Shown here: in pieces, positions 1-9,297 of the stretch
How the letters are laid out: each line of letters opens with the position of its first letter
Position numbering within the stretch: the first letter of the stretch is position 1
Assembly (NCBI GenBank): GCA_947259435.1
Contig: CAMYMP010000650.1
Coordinates: forward strand, 1-9,297
From: an uncultured Woeseiaceae bacterium
GTDB lineage: Bacteria > Pseudomonadota > Gammaproteobacteria > Woeseiales > Woeseiaceae
Length of the DNA: 9,297 nucleotides
Reading direction: 5' to 3'
Notes under the pieces: generated by a model
Databases searched by the model: none
What the model was told of the DNA's origin: nothing
What the model saw: the letters and a program-made list of their open reading frames with translations, nothing else
Translations under genes and position numbers: made by a program

Positions 1-234
1 GGTGCGAACGTTCGAAATGTCGTTGTCTTCGAGACCTGAGTCGTCAATCGCTTGCTGCATGGAAATATAGGCATAAGCGGCTGCGTCGCCCATGAAGCGG
101 AGCACTTTGCGATCGATGAGTTCTTTCGTGTCGATGTTGACCGACCCCGAGATCTGGCTGCGAAGTCCCATCTCTTTGTAGGACTCGTTCGCCACGATTC
201 CCGAGCGGCCATTCTTTAATGAATCAAGGATCTC
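1..234 (-). pseudogene. fabB: Inverted N-terminal segment of fabB (3-oxoacyl-ACP synthase I)
   Basis: Read on the minus strand from 234 down to 1, this segment is open for exactly 78 codons. It gives the region of FabB that follows the first 20 or so residues: it begins [13 protein letters not shown], contains [18 protein letters not shown], and ends DISNVRT. From my memory of E. coli FabB, this matches residues about 21-98 (EVLASLREGRSGI ... LIDRKVVRFMSDASIYAF ... NNPRV). The next residues of the protein, GLIASSGG, are encoded on the opposite strand starting at 235. The segment is therefore inverted in place relative to the rest of the gene, with no codon gained or lost at the T|G junction. 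The first about 20 codons (start and first strand of the thiolase fold) are not in the window. A real inversion would destroy the gene. A fold-back read or assembly error at a contig end would look the same. Confidence 0.9.
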
Positions 235-1174: not shown

Positions 1175-2029
1175 ATGACCCTCGAAACCATCAGCGAAAC
1201 CAACTGCTTTGGCGGCAGGATCGGTTTCTATCGCCACCGATCGGACGCTAATAACTGCGACATGCGGTTTTCGGTGTTCGTGCCGCCCCAGGCGGCCGAC
1301 CGCAGAGTACCCGTCGTCACATTCCTCTCGGGGTTGACCTGCACCGAAGAGAATTTCATGGTGAAAAGCGGCGCGCAGCGCTACGCGGCCGAGTTCGGCA
1401 TCATGCTGGTGTCGCCGGATACGAGTCCGCGCGGCGACGGCGTGCCCGACGATCCCGACAAAGACTACGATTTCGGTCTGGCCGCCGGCTTTTATCTCAA
1501 CGCCACTGAGGAACCGTGGTCGCGGCACTACCACATGTATGACTACGTGATGCAGGAGCTGCAGCCCGCCGTGTTCGACAATTTTCCAGGCGATGCCAAT
1601 CGGCACGGATTGACCGGCCATTCGATGGGTGGTCATGGGGCGCTGACGATCGGGCTCAAGCACCCTGAGGTGTTCCGGTCGTTATCGGCATTTGCGCCAA
1701 TCTGCACGACGGTGCACAGTCCGTGGGGCCAAAAAGCGCTCGGGTATTATCTTGGCAGCGATACGTCAACCTGGCACGTTTATGACGCCTGCGAAGTCGC
1801 GCGAAATGTCAGCGATGCGTCGTCGCGCGGCAGGATTCTCGTTGATCAGGGCGCCGCTGATCCGTATCTCGCGGAGCAGCTCAGGCCCGAACTACTCGAG
1901 CAGGCCTGCAAAGAAAGTGGCCTGCCGCTCGAACTGCGCATGCACGAAGGCTACGATCATGGCTACTATTTCATTTCGACATTCGTAGAAGATCACCTGA
2001 AGCATCACGCGGAACTGCTCTGTGCCTGA
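1175..2029 (+). CDS. fghA: S-formylglutathione hydrolase (esterase D family)
   Basis: This cytoplasmic serine hydrolase splits S-formylglutathione into glutathione and formate, the last step of glutathione-dependent formaldehyde detoxification. The 284-residue product has the usual family length. It has the conserved start with CFGGRIGFYRH, the oxyanion region FLSGLTCTEENF (residues 50-61), the nucleophile elbow GHSMGG with Ser150, an acid residue in VDQGAADPYL (Asp224 or Asp229), and the catalytic His262 in GYDHGYYF. The ATG at 1175 is chosen because the family N-terminus follows directly. I see no strong Shine-Dalgarno sequence before it. The usual partner, glutathione-dependent formaldehyde dehydrogenase, is not next to it: fabB lies upstream, and a B3 metallo-beta-lactamase-like gene overlaps its stop codon by 8 bases. 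The family assignment is firm; activity on other esters is possible. Confidence 0.95.
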   Translation: MTLETISETNCFGGRIGFYRHRSDANNCDMRFSVFVPPQAADRRVPVVTFLSGLTCTEENFMVKSGAQRYAAEFGIMLVSPDTSPRGDGVPDDPDKDYDFGLAAGFYLNATEEPWSRHYHMYDYVMQELQPAVFDNFPGDANRHGLTGHSMGGHGALTIGLKHPEVFRSLSAFAPICTTVHSPWGQKALGYYLGSDTSTWHVYDACEVARNVSDASSRGRILVDQGAADPYLAEQLRPELLEQACKESGLPLELRMHEGYDHGYYFISTFVEDHLKHHAELLCA

Positions 2030-2909
2030 CCGGGCGTGGCTGCTGCTTGTTCTTGCCTGCTGCACACTAGCCGCCTGCGCATCCCCGACGCTGTCCCCTG
2101 ACGCAGCCATCCAGTGTAATAGCTGCGCAAGCTGGAATGAACCACAGTCCCCGTTTCGGATTTTTGGCAATACCTACTACGTCGGTACCGCCGGTCTTTC
2201 GTCGATACTGATCGCGACAAAGGATGGGTTGGTTCTTTTCGACGGTGGTCTGCCGCAGTCGGCGCGGCTGATCGCGGACAATGTTCACACGCTGGGCTTT
2301 GATCCGCGGGACATTCGCGTCATCGCTGTATCACACGCGCACTTCGATCACGTCGGAGGAATCGCTGCGCTACAGCGCCTCAGCGACGCCGACGTAGTGA
2401 CGAGCCTTGCATCGCTGTGGGTCATGCGGCGCGGTGTTCTGCCCGACGACGATCCACAGTTCGATCCGGACAATCGAACAACGGAGTTTCCCGCCATTCC
2501 GGGTTCGGACGCACTAGATGACGGTGCGGTCTTCACGATTGGCGGCGTTTCCGTTCGCGGCATTTATACGCCCGGCCACACGCCCGGTGGCATGACATGG
2601 ACCTGGCAGTCCTGTGAAGACAGGCGATGTCTCGACTTCGTCTATGCCGATTCGATCAGCCCTGTCTCGGTCGACGGGTACCGATTCTCCGACGGGCTTG
2701 GCGCGGCGCTTGGCGATAGCATCGAACGGATAGGAAATCTCGAATGCGACATCTTTCTTGCACCGCATCCATTCTTATTTGGTCTAAAGGACAAAATTCG
2801 GCAGGGCCCGGAGGCGTTCATCGACAAGGATGCCTGCAGCCGATACGCGGCCTCAAGTCGTGCCGGACTGGAGCGTCGGCTGGGCGAGGAGCATGGTGCA
2901 GCACCCTAA
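2022..2909 (+). CDS. Subclass B3 metallo-beta-lactamase-like lipoprotein
   Basis: This is a 295-residue metallo-beta-lactamase-fold hydrolase. All six ligand positions expected of a di-zinc B3 enzyme are visible: His105, His107, Asp109 and His110 in SHAHFDHVGG, His186 in PGHTPGGMTWTW, and His249 in LAPHPF. Other B3-like stretches are NTYYVGTAGLSSILI, VLFDGGLPQSA and YADSISPVS, with Cys198 and Cys203 placed like the family disulfide. The N-terminus is a short hydrophobic signal ending in the lipobox LAAC (Cys19, then Ala), so the enzyme is probably a lipoprotein, likely on the periplasmic face of the outer membrane. The GTG start at 2022 overlaps the end of fghA by 8 bases and is needed to include the signal. 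No good ribosome site precedes it, which suggests translational coupling. Beta-lactam hydrolysis is plausible from the complete metal site but unproven; a related lactonase or other hydrolase remains possible. Confidence 0.88.
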   Translation: MPDRAWLLLVLACCTLAACASPTLSPDAAIQCNSCASWNEPQSPFRIFGNTYYVGTAGLSSILIATKDGLVLFDGGLPQSARLIADNVHTLGFDPRDIRVIAVSHAHFDHVGGIAALQRLSDADVVTSLASLWVMRRGVLPDDDPQFDPDNRTTEFPAIPGSDALDDGAVFTIGGVSVRGIYTPGHTPGGMTWTWQSCEDRRCLDFVYADSISPVSVDGYRFSDGLGAALGDSIERIGNLECDIFLAPHPFLFGLKDKIRQGPEAFIDKDACSRYAASSRAGLERRLGEEHGAAP

Positions 2910-3627: not shown

Positions 3628-4332
3628 CTAGCCATGCTGATGTGCTTCGGGCAATAGCCAGCCCGTAAGCGGCATTGCGATCGTCAATACGCCCAGGACC
3701 ACAATCAATGCGCCAAATCCGAGGCGCGTGCCGCGGCGGCGCATGAAGTGTGACACCTGCGCCGCACCGAGACCCGTCATCACCATGGCCGGCACGGTCC
3801 CGAGACCGAATGCGATCATTATGGCTGCGCCGTCAACGGGCGCCGCGCTGGTTGCCGCGATCAGCAACACGCTGTAAACAAGGCCGCACGGCAGCCAGCC
3901 CCAGACCAGTCCGAGGCCGAGAGCACGTGGCAGGCTGGTCACCGGCAGCAGTCCCTTCGCAAGCGGAGCGATCTTCGCCCAAAGTATCGCGCCCATTCGT
4001 TCGATGGCATTCAGAAGTCGCAGATCGAATGCGACCTTCAGTCCGACCAGAATGATGATCAAGCCGCTCAGAAATCTGACAGAGCTCGCAATCGTCGGCG
4101 ACGCTTTGACAATGACGCTGCCGAAGCTGCCTACAATAGTACCCAGTACCGCATAGCTGACTACGCGACCCAGATTGTAGGTCACCGCTGTCGGTAGTTG
4201 CGTACGCAAGGTTGTGACGCTCGCATTCACGGCAAACAATCCCGAAATCCCGGCGCACATTCCGAGACAGTGTGCGCTGCCGAGCAGCCCGGCGAGCAGT
4301 GCCGCCGACAGGGCAGGCACGAGCTCGCTCAT
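3628..4332 (-). CDS. TauE/SafE-like (COG2836 type) membrane protein of the cbb3 cluster
   Basis: This 234-residue inner-membrane protein has about six predicted helices (roughly 5-33, 55-75, 84-104, 137-160, 167-190 and 205-227). Family marks are GSAHCLGMC (residues 18-26) at the first helix, NLGRVVSYAVLG (about 53-64) and WLPCGLVYS (146-154). The last is a Pro-Cys motif reminiscent of the transmembrane domain of DsbD/CcdA proteins. Databases usually name this group sulfite exporter TauE/SafE, but members beside ccoS, as also in Pseudomonas cco regions from memory, more likely take part in oxidase assembly, perhaps metal or thiol handling. That role is inference from context and from Cys22, Cys26, Cys149, His21 and the C-terminal HQHG. 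Its ATG overlaps the ccoS stop as ATGA. It is the last gene of the minus-strand operon in view. Confidence 0.85.
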   Translation of the reverse strand: MSELVPALSAALLAGLLGSAHCLGMCAGISGLFAVNASVTTLRTQLPTAVTYNLGRVVSYAVLGTIVGSFGSVIVKASPTIASSVRFLSGLIIILVGLKVAFDLRLLNAIERMGAILWAKIAPLAKGLLPVTSLPRALGLGLVWGWLPCGLVYSVLLIAATSAAPVDGAAIMIAFGLGTVPAMVMTGLGAAQVSHFMRRRGTRLGFGALIVVLGVLTIAMPLTGWLLPEAHQHG

Positions 4333-4496
4333 GATGCGGGATTTTCAGGTGGTTTTTCGTCGTCATCCATCACGACGCGTACGGCCGGTGTGTCGAGGTC
4401 GTCGAACTGACCCGAGCCAACGGCCCAGAAAAATGCCCATACGGCGCCTCCAAGTAACAGCAGGGCCAGCGGAATCAGTACGTACAGAATGTTCAT
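4329..4496 (-). CDS. ccoS: cbb3 oxidase maturation protein CcoS
   Basis: This small 55-residue protein begins MNILYVLIPLALLLLGG, a single N-terminal transmembrane helix, followed by WAFFWAVGSGQFDDLDTPA. The SGQFDDLDTPA stretch is the hallmark of CcoS/FixS. The tail is acidic and probably cytoplasmic. CcoS is required for insertion of redox cofactors (heme and copper) into cbb3 oxidase subunit CcoN in Rhodobacter; the mechanism is unknown. The start and stop are fixed by two four-base ATGA overlaps, with ccoI upstream (4493-4496) and the TauE/SafE-like gene downstream (4329-4332), so translation is probably coupled. Confidence 0.95.
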   Translation of the reverse strand: MNILYVLIPLALLLLGGAVWAFFWAVGSGQFDDLDTPAVRVVMDDDEKPPENPAS

Positions 4497-6892
4497 GGTG
4501 CTCCGTAGCGGCTAAGGCGCAGTGCGTTGAGCACGACGATGAGCGAACTCGCGCTCATGCCGATTGCCGCCGCCCATGGTGGCACATACCCCAACGCAGC
4601 CAGCGGCAACGCCGCCGCATTGTAAACGATTGCCCAGGACAGGTTCTGCCTCACAATCTCCATCGTTTTGCGGGCGGTGAGCACTGCGCGGACAATTGGT
4701 TCGAGCGATTCGCCGAGCATGATGACGTCTGCGCTGGTCTGGGCGAGCAATGCGCCGTGGACCGGAGCAATGGAGGCGTCCGCCCCGGCCAGCACGGGCG
4801 CGTCGTTGATGCCGTCCCCAACCATGATCACCGTGTCACCTGCGCGCTGCGCGGAGCGAATGATCTCGAGCTTGTCCTCGGGAGTGCAGCCGTAGTGATA
4901 ATCCGAAATTCCGAGCGTCGCGGCAGCACGACTCACGGGTTCCTTGCTGTCGCCGCTTACGAGTCCGAGCGCAAGACCCAGGCCCTCGAGTTGCTGCAGC
5001 GTTTTTGCCGCGGCGGGCCTGATCGCATCATCGAGTTCGAATCTCGCGACAAGTTCCTTGTCAGTGCCAAGGTAAACACTCGTTGTCTGCTCGTCGCGCG
5101 CAGCGGTCGCCGTGTCTCGGGCAACATAATCGAGGCGCCCCAACCGCCAGCGCCGTCCATCGATAGTACCGGCGACGCCGTCGCCGACCGCGATCCGCTG
5201 TTCCGTAGCTTTATACTCGTTGTCGTGCGCACGAAATGCGCTGGCAATCGGATGAGTCGATACGGTTTCCAATGCAGCCGCGATGCGCAGACATTGCGAT
5301 TCATCGAAGGACTCGTCGAAAACCCGGGTAGACACGATTGCCGGTACGCCAAGCGTCAACGTTCCGGTCTTGTCGAAGAGCACGCGCGTCGCTTTGGACA
5401 ATGCCTCGATCGCGTTGCCGTTAGTGACGAGCAAGTGCAGTTCAGACAGGCGCGAGCCGGCTGCCGCAAATGCAGCCGGCGTAGCCAGCGCAAGCGCGCA
5501 GGGACAAGTGACGACAAGCACAGAAAGGGTTATCACGAAAGCGCGATCCGGCGCAGCGACGTACCAGAAGCCTGCGACAACTGCTGCGATGATCAGTATC
5601 GCGACAACTATGTAGCTTGCAATGCGATCCGCAAGCTGCACGAAAGCAGGCCGGGCAAAACGCGCCCGCTCGCTCATACGGCTGATGGTGCCCAACGTCG
5701 TGTCGCTGCCGGTCTTTTGCACGCGCATCCTGACAACGCCGTCCAGATTGACGCTACCGGCAACAAGGCTATCGTTGATAGATTTCGGCCGTGGCTCCGC
5801 TTCGCCGGTTAACAGGGCTTCATCGACCGTCGTGATGCCGTCAACGAGGAGGCCGTCGGCAGGAATCGATTCGCCGGGTCGAATCAGTATCACGTCGCCG
5901 GAAACGATTTGGCTTGCCGGAACGACCTCCTGAGCGTCTCCGTCGACCCGGGTCACGGTATTTGGCAGCACGGTCGACAGCGCGGTACTGCGATCAATGG
6001 AGCGATGCCGCGCGCGCATCTCGAGAAAACGTCCGAGCGTCAGGAAAAACACGAACATCACTACGGAGTCGAACCAGACGGCCGGTCCGTTGGTCAGCAT
6101 CGCGTAGACAGAGCCCAGGTACGCGGCGGCAATGGCGATCGATACGGGCAGATCCATACCGGGCATGCGCGACACCACACCGCGCCAGGCGCCCGCGAAG
6201 AACGGTCGAGCGGCGTAGAAAACAACCGGTGTCGTGACCACAAAACTGACGATCCGCAGGAAGCGCTGCATGGTTGCATCCATTCCCTGAAAGTCGCCGG
6301 CATAAAGCCCGACCGCGAACATCATGACCTGCATCATGCCGAGCGATGCAACCAGCAGGCGCTTGAGCGCCGCACGTTGCTCGGCGACTTCCGGTCGTGC
6401 CGCTGATTCGGGCGCGAGCGGCTGCGGGTCGTAGCCCAGGTGAGAGAGGCTTTTCAGTAGCTGTCCGAGCCCGAGCTGAGCAATGTGCCAGCGCACGCGC
6501 AGGCGATGTGTCACTGGATTCACCTCGGCGCTTGCAACGCCGTCGAGTCTTGCCAGCGTCGTTTCGATCAGCCAGCTGCAGGCTGCGCAGTACATCCCAC
6601 CCACGTAGATCGTCGCCTCGGCGCTATCGCCGTCTGTGTGCGCAAAAGCGGCGAGCATGTCGTCGCGATCATAGATCTGCCATTCGGCGGCATCGTCAGG
6701 CGGCCTGCCGGCGCCGGGCTGCGGCGCATCGCGCATCGCGTAGTAACTTGTCATGCCCGTGTCGCGAATGAGCTCGGCGACAGCCTTGCAGCCGGGACAA
6801 CAAACGGGATTCAGTTCGCCGTCGATCTCGACCTGGAATTCGTCCAGCCGATCAACGGGCAGGGCGCAGTGAAAACAAGCACCAGCGCTCAT
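4493..6892 (-). CDS. ccoI: Copper-translocating P-type ATPase CcoI (FixI type)
   Basis: This 799-residue P1B-type ATPase exports copper from the cytoplasm for the cbb3 oxidase active site. The N-terminus has a Cys-rich metal-binding region (CFHCALPV at 6-13, CCPGCKAV at 31-38), then a heavy-metal-associated domain with GGMYCAACSWLIE (98-110). The core shows the actuator motif TGEA (362-365), the membrane metal site CPC (463-465), the phosphorylation motif DKTGTLT with Asp507, the HP dipeptide of the nucleotide domain (547-548, STHPIA) and the hinge GDGINDAPVLAGAD (692-705). Eight transmembrane helices are expected for the family. Length and order are typical of FixI/CcoI rather than of CopA. 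It starts with an ATGA overlap with the ccoH-like gene and ends in an ATGA overlap with ccoS. No key residue is missing. Confidence 0.96.
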   Translation of the reverse strand: MSAGACFHCALPVDRLDEFQVEIDGELNPVCCPGCKAVAELIRDTGMTSYYAMRDAPQPGAGRPPDDAAEWQIYDRDDMLAAFAHTDGDSAEATIYVGGMYCAACSWLIETTLARLDGVASAEVNPVTHRLRVRWHIAQLGLGQLLKSLSHLGYDPQPLAPESAARPEVAEQRAALKRLLVASLGMMQVMMFAVGLYAGDFQGMDATMQRFLRIVSFVVTTPVVFYAARPFFAGAWRGVVSRMPGMDLPVSIAIAAAYLGSVYAMLTNGPAVWFDSVVMFVFFLTLGRFLEMRARHRSIDRSTALSTVLPNTVTRVDGDAQEVVPASQIVSGDVILIRPGESIPADGLLVDGITTVDEALLTGEAEPRPKSINDSLVAGSVNLDGVVRMRVQKTGSDTTLGTISRMSERARFARPAFVQLADRIASYIVVAILIIAAVVAGFWYVAAPDRAFVITLSVLVVTCPCALALATPAAFAAAGSRLSELHLLVTNGNAIEALSKATRVLFDKTGTLTLGVPAIVSTRVFDESFDESQCLRIAAALETVSTHPIASAFRAHDNEYKATEQRIAVGDGVAGTIDGRRWRLGRLDYVARDTATAARDEQTTSVYLGTDKELVARFELDDAIRPAAAKTLQQLEGLGLALGLVSGDSKEPVSRAAATLGISDYHYGCTPEDKLEIIRSAQRAGDTVIMVGDGINDAPVLAGADASIAPVHGALLAQTSADVIMLGESLEPIVRAVLTARKTMEIVRQNLSWAIVYNAAALPLAALGYVPPWAAAIGMSASSLIVVLNALRLSRYGAP

Positions 6893-7044
6893 CGTCCGTC
6901 ATACGACTGATTCAAGACCGGTTCCGCGGTGCTGGCGGCCAGATACACGGTATAGAGGCTTGCAGAGACCGACGAGCCGAGCAGCACAATGATGAACCAG
7001 GGCCAGAAGTGGCGGTACCAGGGCCGGGCGTCTTTTCGGGTCAT
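6889..7044 (-). CDS. ccoH: Very short CcoH/FixH-like protein (membrane anchor only)
   Basis: A 51-residue ORF lies in the ccoH position between ccoG and ccoI. It begins MTRKDARPWYRHFWPWFIIV and continues LLGSSVSASLYTVYLAAS. The PWY..FWPWF start plus one transmembrane helix is the typical N-terminus of FixH/CcoH. The usual protein is about 150-170 residues, with a periplasmic beta domain after the helix. Here only about 16 residues follow before the stop. The start overlaps the ccoG stop as TGATG, and the stop overlaps the ccoI ATG as ATGA, so the ORF looks like a coupled gene rather than random leftovers. There is no room for the missing domain. In Rhodobacter CcoH is an assembly factor stably bound to the oxidase. 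Identity as a reduced CcoH is inferred from position and the N-terminal motif. Confidence 0.8.
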   Translation of the reverse strand: MTRKDARPWYRHFWPWFIIVLLGSSVSASLYTVYLAASTAEPVLNQSYDGR

Positions 7045-8435
7045 CAGGGTGTGGGGCCGAGGAAGCGGCTGTCTTCAATGACCGAAACACTTTCGTCGTC
7101 GACAGCAATTGCAGAAAAAGTAATGTTCATAATGCCATACGCGTTGCTGCGCTGCGTACGTGCCCTGACCGGGAGCGACATAACGTCGCCGCCAGCGACC
7201 GTTACTCCGTCCGCGGCGCCGTCCAGCGTCAGCCCCGGCACGCCATCGACGGACAGTCGGAATTTGCGCGGCGTGTTGCTCTGGTTGATGAGTTTTAGCG
7301 TGTAGCTGTTCTCGATGATGTCGCCGGGCAGCTCACGGTAGAGCGTGTTGCGATCGCGAATCACGTCGAGGATTAGAGGCGTCCGGGTGACCATCGAAGT
7401 GATCAGGGCGCCACCAAGCACAAGTAGTACCGTGGCATAGACGAACATCCTCGGGCGCAATACTCGCGTTGCTTCGCTGTGCAAGGAGTGTTCGGTCGTA
7501 TAGCGTACGAGCCCGCGCGGGTAGTCCATTTTGTCCATAATCGAGTCGCAGGCATCGATGCACGCGGCGCAGGCGATGCATTCGTACTGCAGGCCCTCCC
7601 GAATGTCGATACCTGTTGGGCAAACCTGCACGCACAGCTGGCAGTCAATGCAGTCGCCAAGGCCTTCCTGTTTGCGATCGACTGAGCGCTTGCGTCCGCC
7701 GCGCGGCTCTCCGCGCTTCTCATCGTAGGAAATTATGAGCGTGTCTTTGTCGAACATCGCGCTCTGAAAGCGCGCATACGGGCACATGAATTTGCAGACC
7801 TGCTCACGCATGTAGCCCGCGTTGCCGTAGGTCGCGAAACCGTAAAACAGACCCCAGAACAGCGTCCAGCCGCCGACATTGAATGTGAGGATATCGAGTC
7901 CGAGCTGGCGAATCGGCATGAAATAGCCGACGAACGTGAAGCCGGTCCACAGCGAGAACGTAATCCAGAGGAGCTGCTTGGAGCCTTTGCGGCGCAGTTT
8001 GTTCCAGCTCCACGGCGCCTTATCGAGCTTCATGCGCTGCGAGCGCGTGCCTTCGGTAATCTGCTCCATCCAGATGAACGCTCCGGTCCAGACCGTTTGT
8101 GGACAGGCGAAGCCGCACCAGAGTCTTCCCGCCAGCGCCGTGAAAAAGAACAGCGACAACGCGGCAATCATCAGCAGCAGCGCGAGGTAGATGAAGTCCT
8201 GTGGCCACAGAGTCAGGCCAAGCAGGTAGAACTTGCGCGCCGGGAGGTCGAACAGAAATGCCTGCCGGTCGTCCCACATCAGCCACGGAATAAGGTAGAA
8301 AAGGCCCAGGAGAACGTTGGTAGCCAGCTTTGAGAGCGACGCGAAGCGACCCTTGATCTCGCGCGGATAGATTTTTTTGGCGCTTTCGTAGAGCCCCGCG
8401 GCCGTTGGCCGGTCGGTTTTTGTCGATGTGCTCAT
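7044..8435 (-). CDS. ccoG: cbb3 oxidase accessory protein CcoG (ferredoxin-like cupric reductase)
   Basis: This 463-residue membrane iron-sulfur protein is of the FixG/RdxA family, shown in Rhodobacter to reduce Cu(II) to Cu(I) for cbb3 assembly. The N-terminal half has several helices, with cysteine pairs in LWCGFACPQT (Cys107, Cys111) and VCKFMCPYARFQ (Cys214, Cys218). Two ferredoxin-type clusters follow: CIDCQLCVQVCP (Cys262, 265, 268, 272) and CIACAACIDACD (Cys286, 289, 292, 296). A further helix lies at about 333-355, then an Ig-like FixG C-terminal domain in the periplasm. The length is normal. The ATG at 8435 lies 12 bases after the stop of the small membrane protein gene, without an obvious Shine-Dalgarno. 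Its stop overlaps the next start by one base. Confidence 0.96.
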   Translation of the reverse strand: MSTSTKTDRPTAAGLYESAKKIYPREIKGRFASLSKLATNVLLGLFYLIPWLMWDDRQAFLFDLPARKFYLLGLTLWPQDFIYLALLLMIAALSLFFFTALAGRLWCGFACPQTVWTGAFIWMEQITEGTRSQRMKLDKAPWSWNKLRRKGSKQLLWITFSLWTGFTFVGYFMPIRQLGLDILTFNVGGWTLFWGLFYGFATYGNAGYMREQVCKFMCPYARFQSAMFDKDTLIISYDEKRGEPRGGRKRSVDRKQEGLGDCIDCQLCVQVCPTGIDIREGLQYECIACAACIDACDSIMDKMDYPRGLVRYTTEHSLHSEATRVLRPRMFVYATVLLVLGGALITSMVTRTPLILDVIRDRNTLYRELPGDIIENSYTLKLINQSNTPRKFRLSVDGVPGLTLDGAADGVTVAGGDVMSLPVRARTQRSNAYGIMNITFSAIAVDDESVSVIEDSRFLGPTP

Positions 8436-8447
8436 CAGCTTTGAGGG

Positions 8448-8735
8448 TTAACGATGTTTGGTGTCGCGTTTCGGAGCAGTCCGCACGAGCCAGGCAGTGA
8501 CAGCCGAGCAGCCGGCCGAAATAATCCAGAAAAAAAAGAAACCTGCCGCATAACCCGCCTGACGACCGACTTCGAGGTCCGGGTCCAACGTTGCGAGCAG
8601 TTCGATCGGGTCGAACAAAGCAAAGAAAAGCATCGTGGCCACGGCTGCGGATAGAAATGAGATCCAGACAACCGTCGCAACAGCCTGTTTGTTACGACTC
8701 CATTGCCTCGCGCCTCGATACTCGTCGTTGACCAC
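8448..8735 (-). CDS. Small two-helix membrane protein of the cbb3 operon, unknown function
   Basis: This 95-residue product has two hydrophobic segments: about 20-42 (VATVVWISFLSAAVATMLFF) and about 62-86 (YAAGFFFFWIISAGCSAVTA). Between them is a short acidic loop, DPIELLATLDPDLEVGRQ. The C-terminus is basic. Both ends probably face the cytoplasm. The start is GTG at 8735, supported by AGGT (minus strand of 8741-8744) five bases upstream. The gene lies 11 bases after the ccoP stop and 12 bases before ccoG, so it is clearly part of the operon. I do not know a characterised homologue. Similar small proteins occur between ccoP and ccoG in other gammaproteobacteria as far as I recall. A role in cbb3 assembly or stability is inference from position alone. 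Confidence 0.8.
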   Translation of the reverse strand: MVNDEYRGARQWSRNKQAVATVVWISFLSAAVATMLFFALFDPIELLATLDPDLEVGRQAGYAAGFFFFWIISAGCSAVTAWLVRTAPKRDTKHR

Positions 8736-8746
8736 GGCGCACCTCG

Positions 8747-9297
8747 CTATTCGGCACCGGACAGGCTGTAAACATAGGCCGCAAGAATCTTCGTGCGCTT
8801 CTCTCCAAGTAGTTCGCCATGAGCAGGCATCACGCCATTGCGGCCCTGCACGATGGTCGTCCGTATCGCGTCCGCCGATCCGCCGTATAACCAGATATCG
8901 TCAGTCAGGTTGGGCCCACCCAGCATCTGATTGCCACTGCCGTCGGCCATATGGCACGCGCTGCAGAGTGCAACGAACATGGGCTGAGCGCTCATCGCAG
9001 CCTGGTCTGCTTCTGCCGCGCCACTCAGGCTCTGCACGTATTTGACCATGTTTTCGACACCGGCATCGCCGCCCAGGGCGGCTGACAGATTCGGCATGAT
9101 GCTGTTGCGGCCATGCAGGATCGTTGTCGAAATCGCCGCTTCGCTTTTACCCCAGATCCAGTCGTCGTCTGTCAGATTCGGATAGCCGGTCGCGCCGCGA
9201 GCATCGGAGCCGTGGCAAGTCGTGCAGTAGCTTGCAAACAGGCTCCTGCCCAGTTTGTTCGCGTCGGGGTCTTGTGCCAGCGCCCCGAATTCCATAT
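8747..9297 (-). CDS. ccoP: cbb3 cytochrome c oxidase diheme subunit CcoP, C-terminal part
   Basis: The frame is open to the right edge, so the N-terminal membrane anchor lies outside the window; the ATG at 9295 is internal. The visible 182 residues hold two cytochrome c domains. The first has CTTCH (24-28 from that Met) with its likely axial methionine in NSIMPNL (Met67). The second has CSACH (111-115) with its likely axial methionine in NGVMPAHG (Met156). The repeated NLTDD.W..G phrases are typical of CcoP. The protein passes electrons from soluble or membrane cytochromes c to CcoO and CcoN on the periplasmic side. The following genes ccoG, ccoI and ccoS confirm the identity. The end is TAG at 8747. 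Confidence 0.95.
   Translation of the reverse strand, partial: MEFGALAQDPDANKLGRSLFASYCTTCHGSDARGATGYPNLTDDDWIWGKSEAAISTTILHGRNSIMPNLSAALGGDAGVENMVKYVQSLSGAAEADQAAMSAQPMFVALCSACHMADGSGNQMLGGPNLTDDIWLYGGSADAIRTTIVQGRNGVMPAHGELLGEKRTKILAAYVYSLSGAE

Follow-up and report, generated by a model that had tools for sequence, protein, structure and literature searches.

Introduction

Exact in-place inversions of a few hundred bases characterize site-specific invertible DNA switches such as the fim switch. The gene fabB encodes beta-ketoacyl-ACP synthase I (described by the NCBIfam profile NF005935), which is needed in FabA/FabB bacteria. A different origin of inverted segments has been described for DNA prepared by multiple displacement amplification, where 406 of 475 chimeras were inverted and 337 of those 406 joined segments located less than 10 kb apart (Lasken and Stockwell, 2007, PMC1855051). 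In the part of that report dealing with junctions, displaced 3' ends are described to use short complementarity, and complementary bases were found at the junction in 93.5% of the inverted chimeras with a distance below 10 kb, with up to 21 bases in the whole set (PMC1855051).

Here we have analysed a stretch of 9,297 nucleotides from an uncultured Woeseiaceae bacterium (the window), which starts with an inverted piece of fabB. This locus resembles the invertible switches in that a few hundred bases are inverted exactly and in place; it differs from the fim switch in that the frames scanned in the window contain no recombinase, that the inversion lies inside a housekeeping coding gene and that no second orientation was seen in relatives. 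With the amplification chimeras of PMC1855051, it has in common that neighbouring segments are inverted over a short distance (234 bases) and that short complementarity is expected at the junction, whereas in our case the junction is found in a contig instead of a read, the complementarity is predicted and the amplification of the sample is an assumption. Compared to the FabB proteins defined by NF005935, both pieces belong to one gene, but its frame is broken and its first 20 codons are missing. A literature search returned no published account of this exact contig-end pattern, which does not prove that none exists.

Results

The inverted segment is manifested in the translation of the first 1152 bases. 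The reverse complement of positions 1–234 is free of stops, ends in DISNVRT and encodes fabB codons 21–98 on the minus strand, up to the edge of the window, while positions 235–1152 on the plus strand encode codons 99 to the stop (1150–1152), starting with GLIASSGG. Residues 1–78 of the reverse-complemented piece match positions 21–98 of NF005935 (E 7.1e-29) and 235–1149 match positions 99–403 (E 1.5e-162), so that the profile continues exactly from 98 to 99, as the original prediction of an inverted segment of about residues 21–98 followed by residue 99 onward had proposed. The first segment thus belongs before position 235 but is written reversed. In its present form, with codons 1–20 absent and the reading frame broken, the gene stays below the curated cut-off of the profile (630 bits), with its two pieces scored separately at 100.9 and 541.1 bits. 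Once restored, the composite shows up to 0.95 identity to FabB proteins in a position-by-position comparison of residues 21–403, which included the 112 proteins of exactly 403 amino acids among 120 of 7999 matches listed. In the best two of these, P0003 and P0004, the identity is 0.923 and 0.949 in the flipped piece and 0.957 and 0.944 in the rest. The flip within the record is real and far beyond chance, and its breakpoint coincides exactly with the end of the contig. The boundaries had been proposed to be exactly position 1 and 234/235; this is correct for the fit to the profile, whereas the junction itself carries an ambiguity of one base or more, as G at position 1 is complementary to C at position 234, and of 6–8 more bases if the repeat predicted below exists.

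The possibility that 1–234 on the minus strand would be part of a separate ketoacyl synthase gene, which was named in advance as the observation that would speak against an inversion, was rejected in light of the match to residues 21–98 of NF005935 and the 94.9% protein identity to FabB of the nearest relative found (L001, JAOTUB010000188.1). At the DNA level, the identity to the colinear stretch of this relative is 0.91 in the flipped piece and 0.89 over the first 900 bases of the rest, and due to this similarity both parts fit a single genome. Three near genomes (L001, L002 and L004) each contain one close fabB, and none of their other synthases exceeds 45% identity to the rest of FabB. A near-identical intact copy was not seen among 120 of 7999 matches listed, where the top full-length FabB reaches 96% identity to the 235–1149 query. 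Similarly, among 120 of 125 listed fragments of 50–159 amino acids, we found neither the missing left end (the top-scoring fragment being 83% and the highest 84% identical) nor a reverse-strand entry of the same contig, and the junction as written (219–248) has no exact match in viral_contigs.

Since the flip starts exactly at base 1, it could stem from processing of the window at a stage later than the public record, an option that had been raised before. We consider this very improbable in view of P0007, a database protein of 280 residues whose entry gives 9297 bases for the longest contig and which starts at the GTG at position 310 and thus already inside the broken frame. A flipped contig would be expected to produce just this start, as its frame is closed by a stop at 217–219, before position 235; without the flip, the partial protein would be longer. 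P0007 would only mislead if it was itself derived from the window. The flip was thus probably present in the public contig already and not made in cutting the window, a conclusion that presupposes P0007 to be a genuine database entry.

The nearest relatives by genome record, among 80 of 560 loci, are uncultured gammaproteobacteria, several of them titled Woeseiaceae. In L001 the stretch is uninverted, with a FabA-domain gene located directly upstream of fabB in the order fabA-fabB-fghA, and as far as this contig reaches its downstream order (fabB-fghA-lactamase remnant-sel1-dsbD2) equals that of the window, which lacks fabB codons 1–20 and, judged against L001, fabA. L002 and L004 are close in fabB and differ from the window in their downstream genes. 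In the window, fabB is directly followed on the plus strand by a gene for an S-formylglutathione hydrolase (fghA, 1175–2029, TIGR02821), for which a match is found downstream of fabB in 14 of 23 loci (L001–L023). Between fghA and a Sel1-repeat gene resides a gene encoding a protein resembling subclass B3 metallo-beta-lactamases (2022–2906, plus strand; 272.2 bits in NCBIfam with a cut-off of 240). In L001 its counterpart matches only in residues 1–61 and 216–271 and therefore looks internally shortened, and matches of 50–53% identity are located downstream of fghA in L009–L014 and L017. Further to the right, the window (3628–9295, minus strand) contains in a domain scan a block of the cbb3 oxidase assembly type, comprising a DsbD_2-type membrane protein, a copper-type P-type ATPase, CcoG and a ccoP-like cytochrome. 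The latter is cut by the right edge, where no flip is apparent because its frame is open up to the edge.

The comparison of the junction with related genomes, as had been suggested, revealed no flip in the relatives examined. The search covered 107 genomes of the family to which the genome of L001 belongs, 105 of which contained matches; by best E-value per genome, these comprise 90 genomes with a full-length FabB, five with partial hits only and ten with weaker synthase matches only. A genome was counted as full-length if its match to codon 99 and beyond fell in an open frame of 403 codons or more, long enough to accommodate codons 1–98 as well. All 90 matches reside in uninterrupted frames. 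Among six regions with partial hits, taken from five family genomes, L116 turned out to span residues 1–402 and L117–L121 are plain cuts at contig ends. None of these latter five pieces (from four genomes, two of them from one) carries a flip, which argues against a habitual artefact at fabB. A self-complementary stretch of 22 bases in L120 is located away from fabB. L119 (residues 1–307) and L120 (residues 200–402) are contig-end pieces of one family genome that overlap in residues and may therefore come from two strains or copies. After removal of duplicates and of loci not anchored at both ends, 33 distinct loci remained from 115. In 30 of these, the two pieces are spaced by 234 bases on one strand, placing the joined segments close to each other and well within the 10 kb typical of inverted chimeras, and in three (L030, L084 and L086) by 237, with L084 and L086 being paralogues of 38–39% identity. 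In total, no flip was found in the 90 full-length family matches, the 33 anchored loci or the five contig-end pieces.

These data bear on the question whether the inversion might exist in some cells, perhaps reversibly, to switch fabB off. The flip is exact and in place, with no base lost, it may be bounded by a short inverted repeat, and its coincidence with the contig edge is compatible with such an event, because mixed orientations in a population would also break the contig exactly at the breakpoint. We nevertheless consider a real inversion improbable, as none of the 90 full-length family matches is interrupted, which leaves us with a single orientation, and as it would break a gene that is the sole close fabB in the three near genomes. 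A recombinase domain was detected neither in the ten frames scanned, which comprise all but two small frames of the window and lie to the right of the contig end, nor in seven selected frames around fabB in L004 and L005. Together with the single close fabB and the end of the contig at the breakpoint, these observations are in line with the original prediction, which had favoured an artefact.

The sequence surrounding the breakpoints suggests how the two strands might have been joined. On the reverse strand, the frame is open across 234/235 and reads D-Q-A|E-I-L; at the same point, N-N-Q-A|E-I is found in P0003 and P0004, the two relatives most similar to the composite. In contrast, P0005 and P0006, which make up the other two of the four closest relatives, contain QS instead of QA (N-N-Q-S). 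Among the 112 proteins of 403 residues from 120 of 7999 matches listed, Q precedes residue 21 in two positions' distance in 106 and QA in 69. The bases before codon 21 are CAGGCC in L004 and, with one mismatch, CAGTCC in L001. From the Q-A shared with P0003 and P0004, an inverted repeat of 6–8 bases (CAGGCC/GGCCTG) is predicted at the breakpoints, provided that both residues are spelt CAG GCC as in L004, a spelling that by the codon usage of the window would be expected only roughly one time in four (0.81 x 0.29). In this case, the bases before codon 21 would form an inverted repeat with 235–242, beside the complementary pair 1/234. Within the junction region (229–243), it is GGCCTGATC at 235–243 that would pair over 6–8 bases with the predicted CAGGCC, the outer left arm of the repeat, which would be located beyond the left edge of the window. 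The earlier remark that inverted repeats are lacking at the two ends therefore applies to the sequence inside the window. The complementary bases visible at the junction thus amount to one pair, with 6–8 more predicted from some relatives and not from others. In L004, an exact 6-base inverted repeat occupies these two points, and repeats of at least 6 bases at such spacing occur at 6 of 9017 positions of the window. Among the 33 anchored relatives, L004 is the only one with 6 bases, the others having at most 4, and the repeat is therefore not a conserved feature. Longer inverted repeats within 1–1600 comprise two pairs (921–945/1284–1308 and 131–152/1326–1347), neither located at the ends of the flip. 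The 10-base palindrome CGAACGTTCG within the fabB coding sequence, which had been proposed to favour fold-back, is indeed present at 5–14, but was rejected as fold-back point by reasoning, since a strand folding back there would run straight into the gene again instead of producing a flip of 234 bases. The fold-back explanation does not need it, and the predicted short repeat at the breakpoints is the more informative mark.

Discussion

The flip described in this study is very probably an artefact of the contig end and not a gene switch in the cell. This assessment combines three origins, with a fold-back chimera accounting for the largest share, a flip arising purely in assembly for a much smaller one and processing of the window for very little.

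With fair but not strong confidence, we favour an error of fold-back copying in the course of DNA amplification or library preparation, the product of which was then probably incorporated at the contig end by the assembler. In such a process, a nascent strand copying fabB towards the start of the gene would come loose at codon 99 and anneal just upstream of codon 21 via a short inverted repeat, the predicted 6–8 bases of CAGGCC/GGCCTG. The annealed strand would then copy codons 21–98 in opposite direction. The resulting molecule would form a hairpin-like path, in which the bases beyond position 1 lead back into used sequence (codon 99 onward), so that the assembler would end the contig there, and the cell itself would keep an ordinary intact fabA-fabB pair. 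A fold-back chimera is consistent with the exact continuity of the profile at 98/99, the contig edge at the breakpoint, the intact order in relatives including the colinear L001, the Q-A reading shared with P0003 and P0004 and the 6-base repeat at both points in L004. It is weakened by the fact that the repeat is only predicted, with QS in P0005 and P0006, CAGTCC in L001 and 6 bases in one of 33 anchored relatives, and by the unflipped state of the five other contig-end pieces. Moreover, a blastn search of the whole window against itself found no inverted match, so that 235 onward does not recur in inverted form at the contig end. Assemblers leaving overlapping contig ends would show such a recurrence, and an assembly that is non-overlapping or trimmed thus has to be assumed.

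The lack of a second copy of 235 onward at the far end of the piece is also consistent with an origin without any chimeric molecule, in which the assembler or scaffolder would have attached a correct end piece of 234 bases in the wrong orientation, in line with the location of the piece at the contig edge and its exact fit once turned. We regard this origin as rather unlikely, as it leaves the Q-A reading at the junction, common to the two closest relatives, unexplained, which could be due to chance.

Irrespective of the relative weight of fold-back copying and misassembly, the locus illustrates that a contig end can carry a perfect-looking inversion in a housekeeping gene, which could be misread as a pseudogene or as phase variation. 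If the inversion were real, it would instead constitute an on/off switch acting on membrane lipid synthesis, although it appears exceedingly improbable that a reversible DNA switch in fabB would turn off the synthesis of unsaturated fatty acids in part of a Woeseiaceae population.
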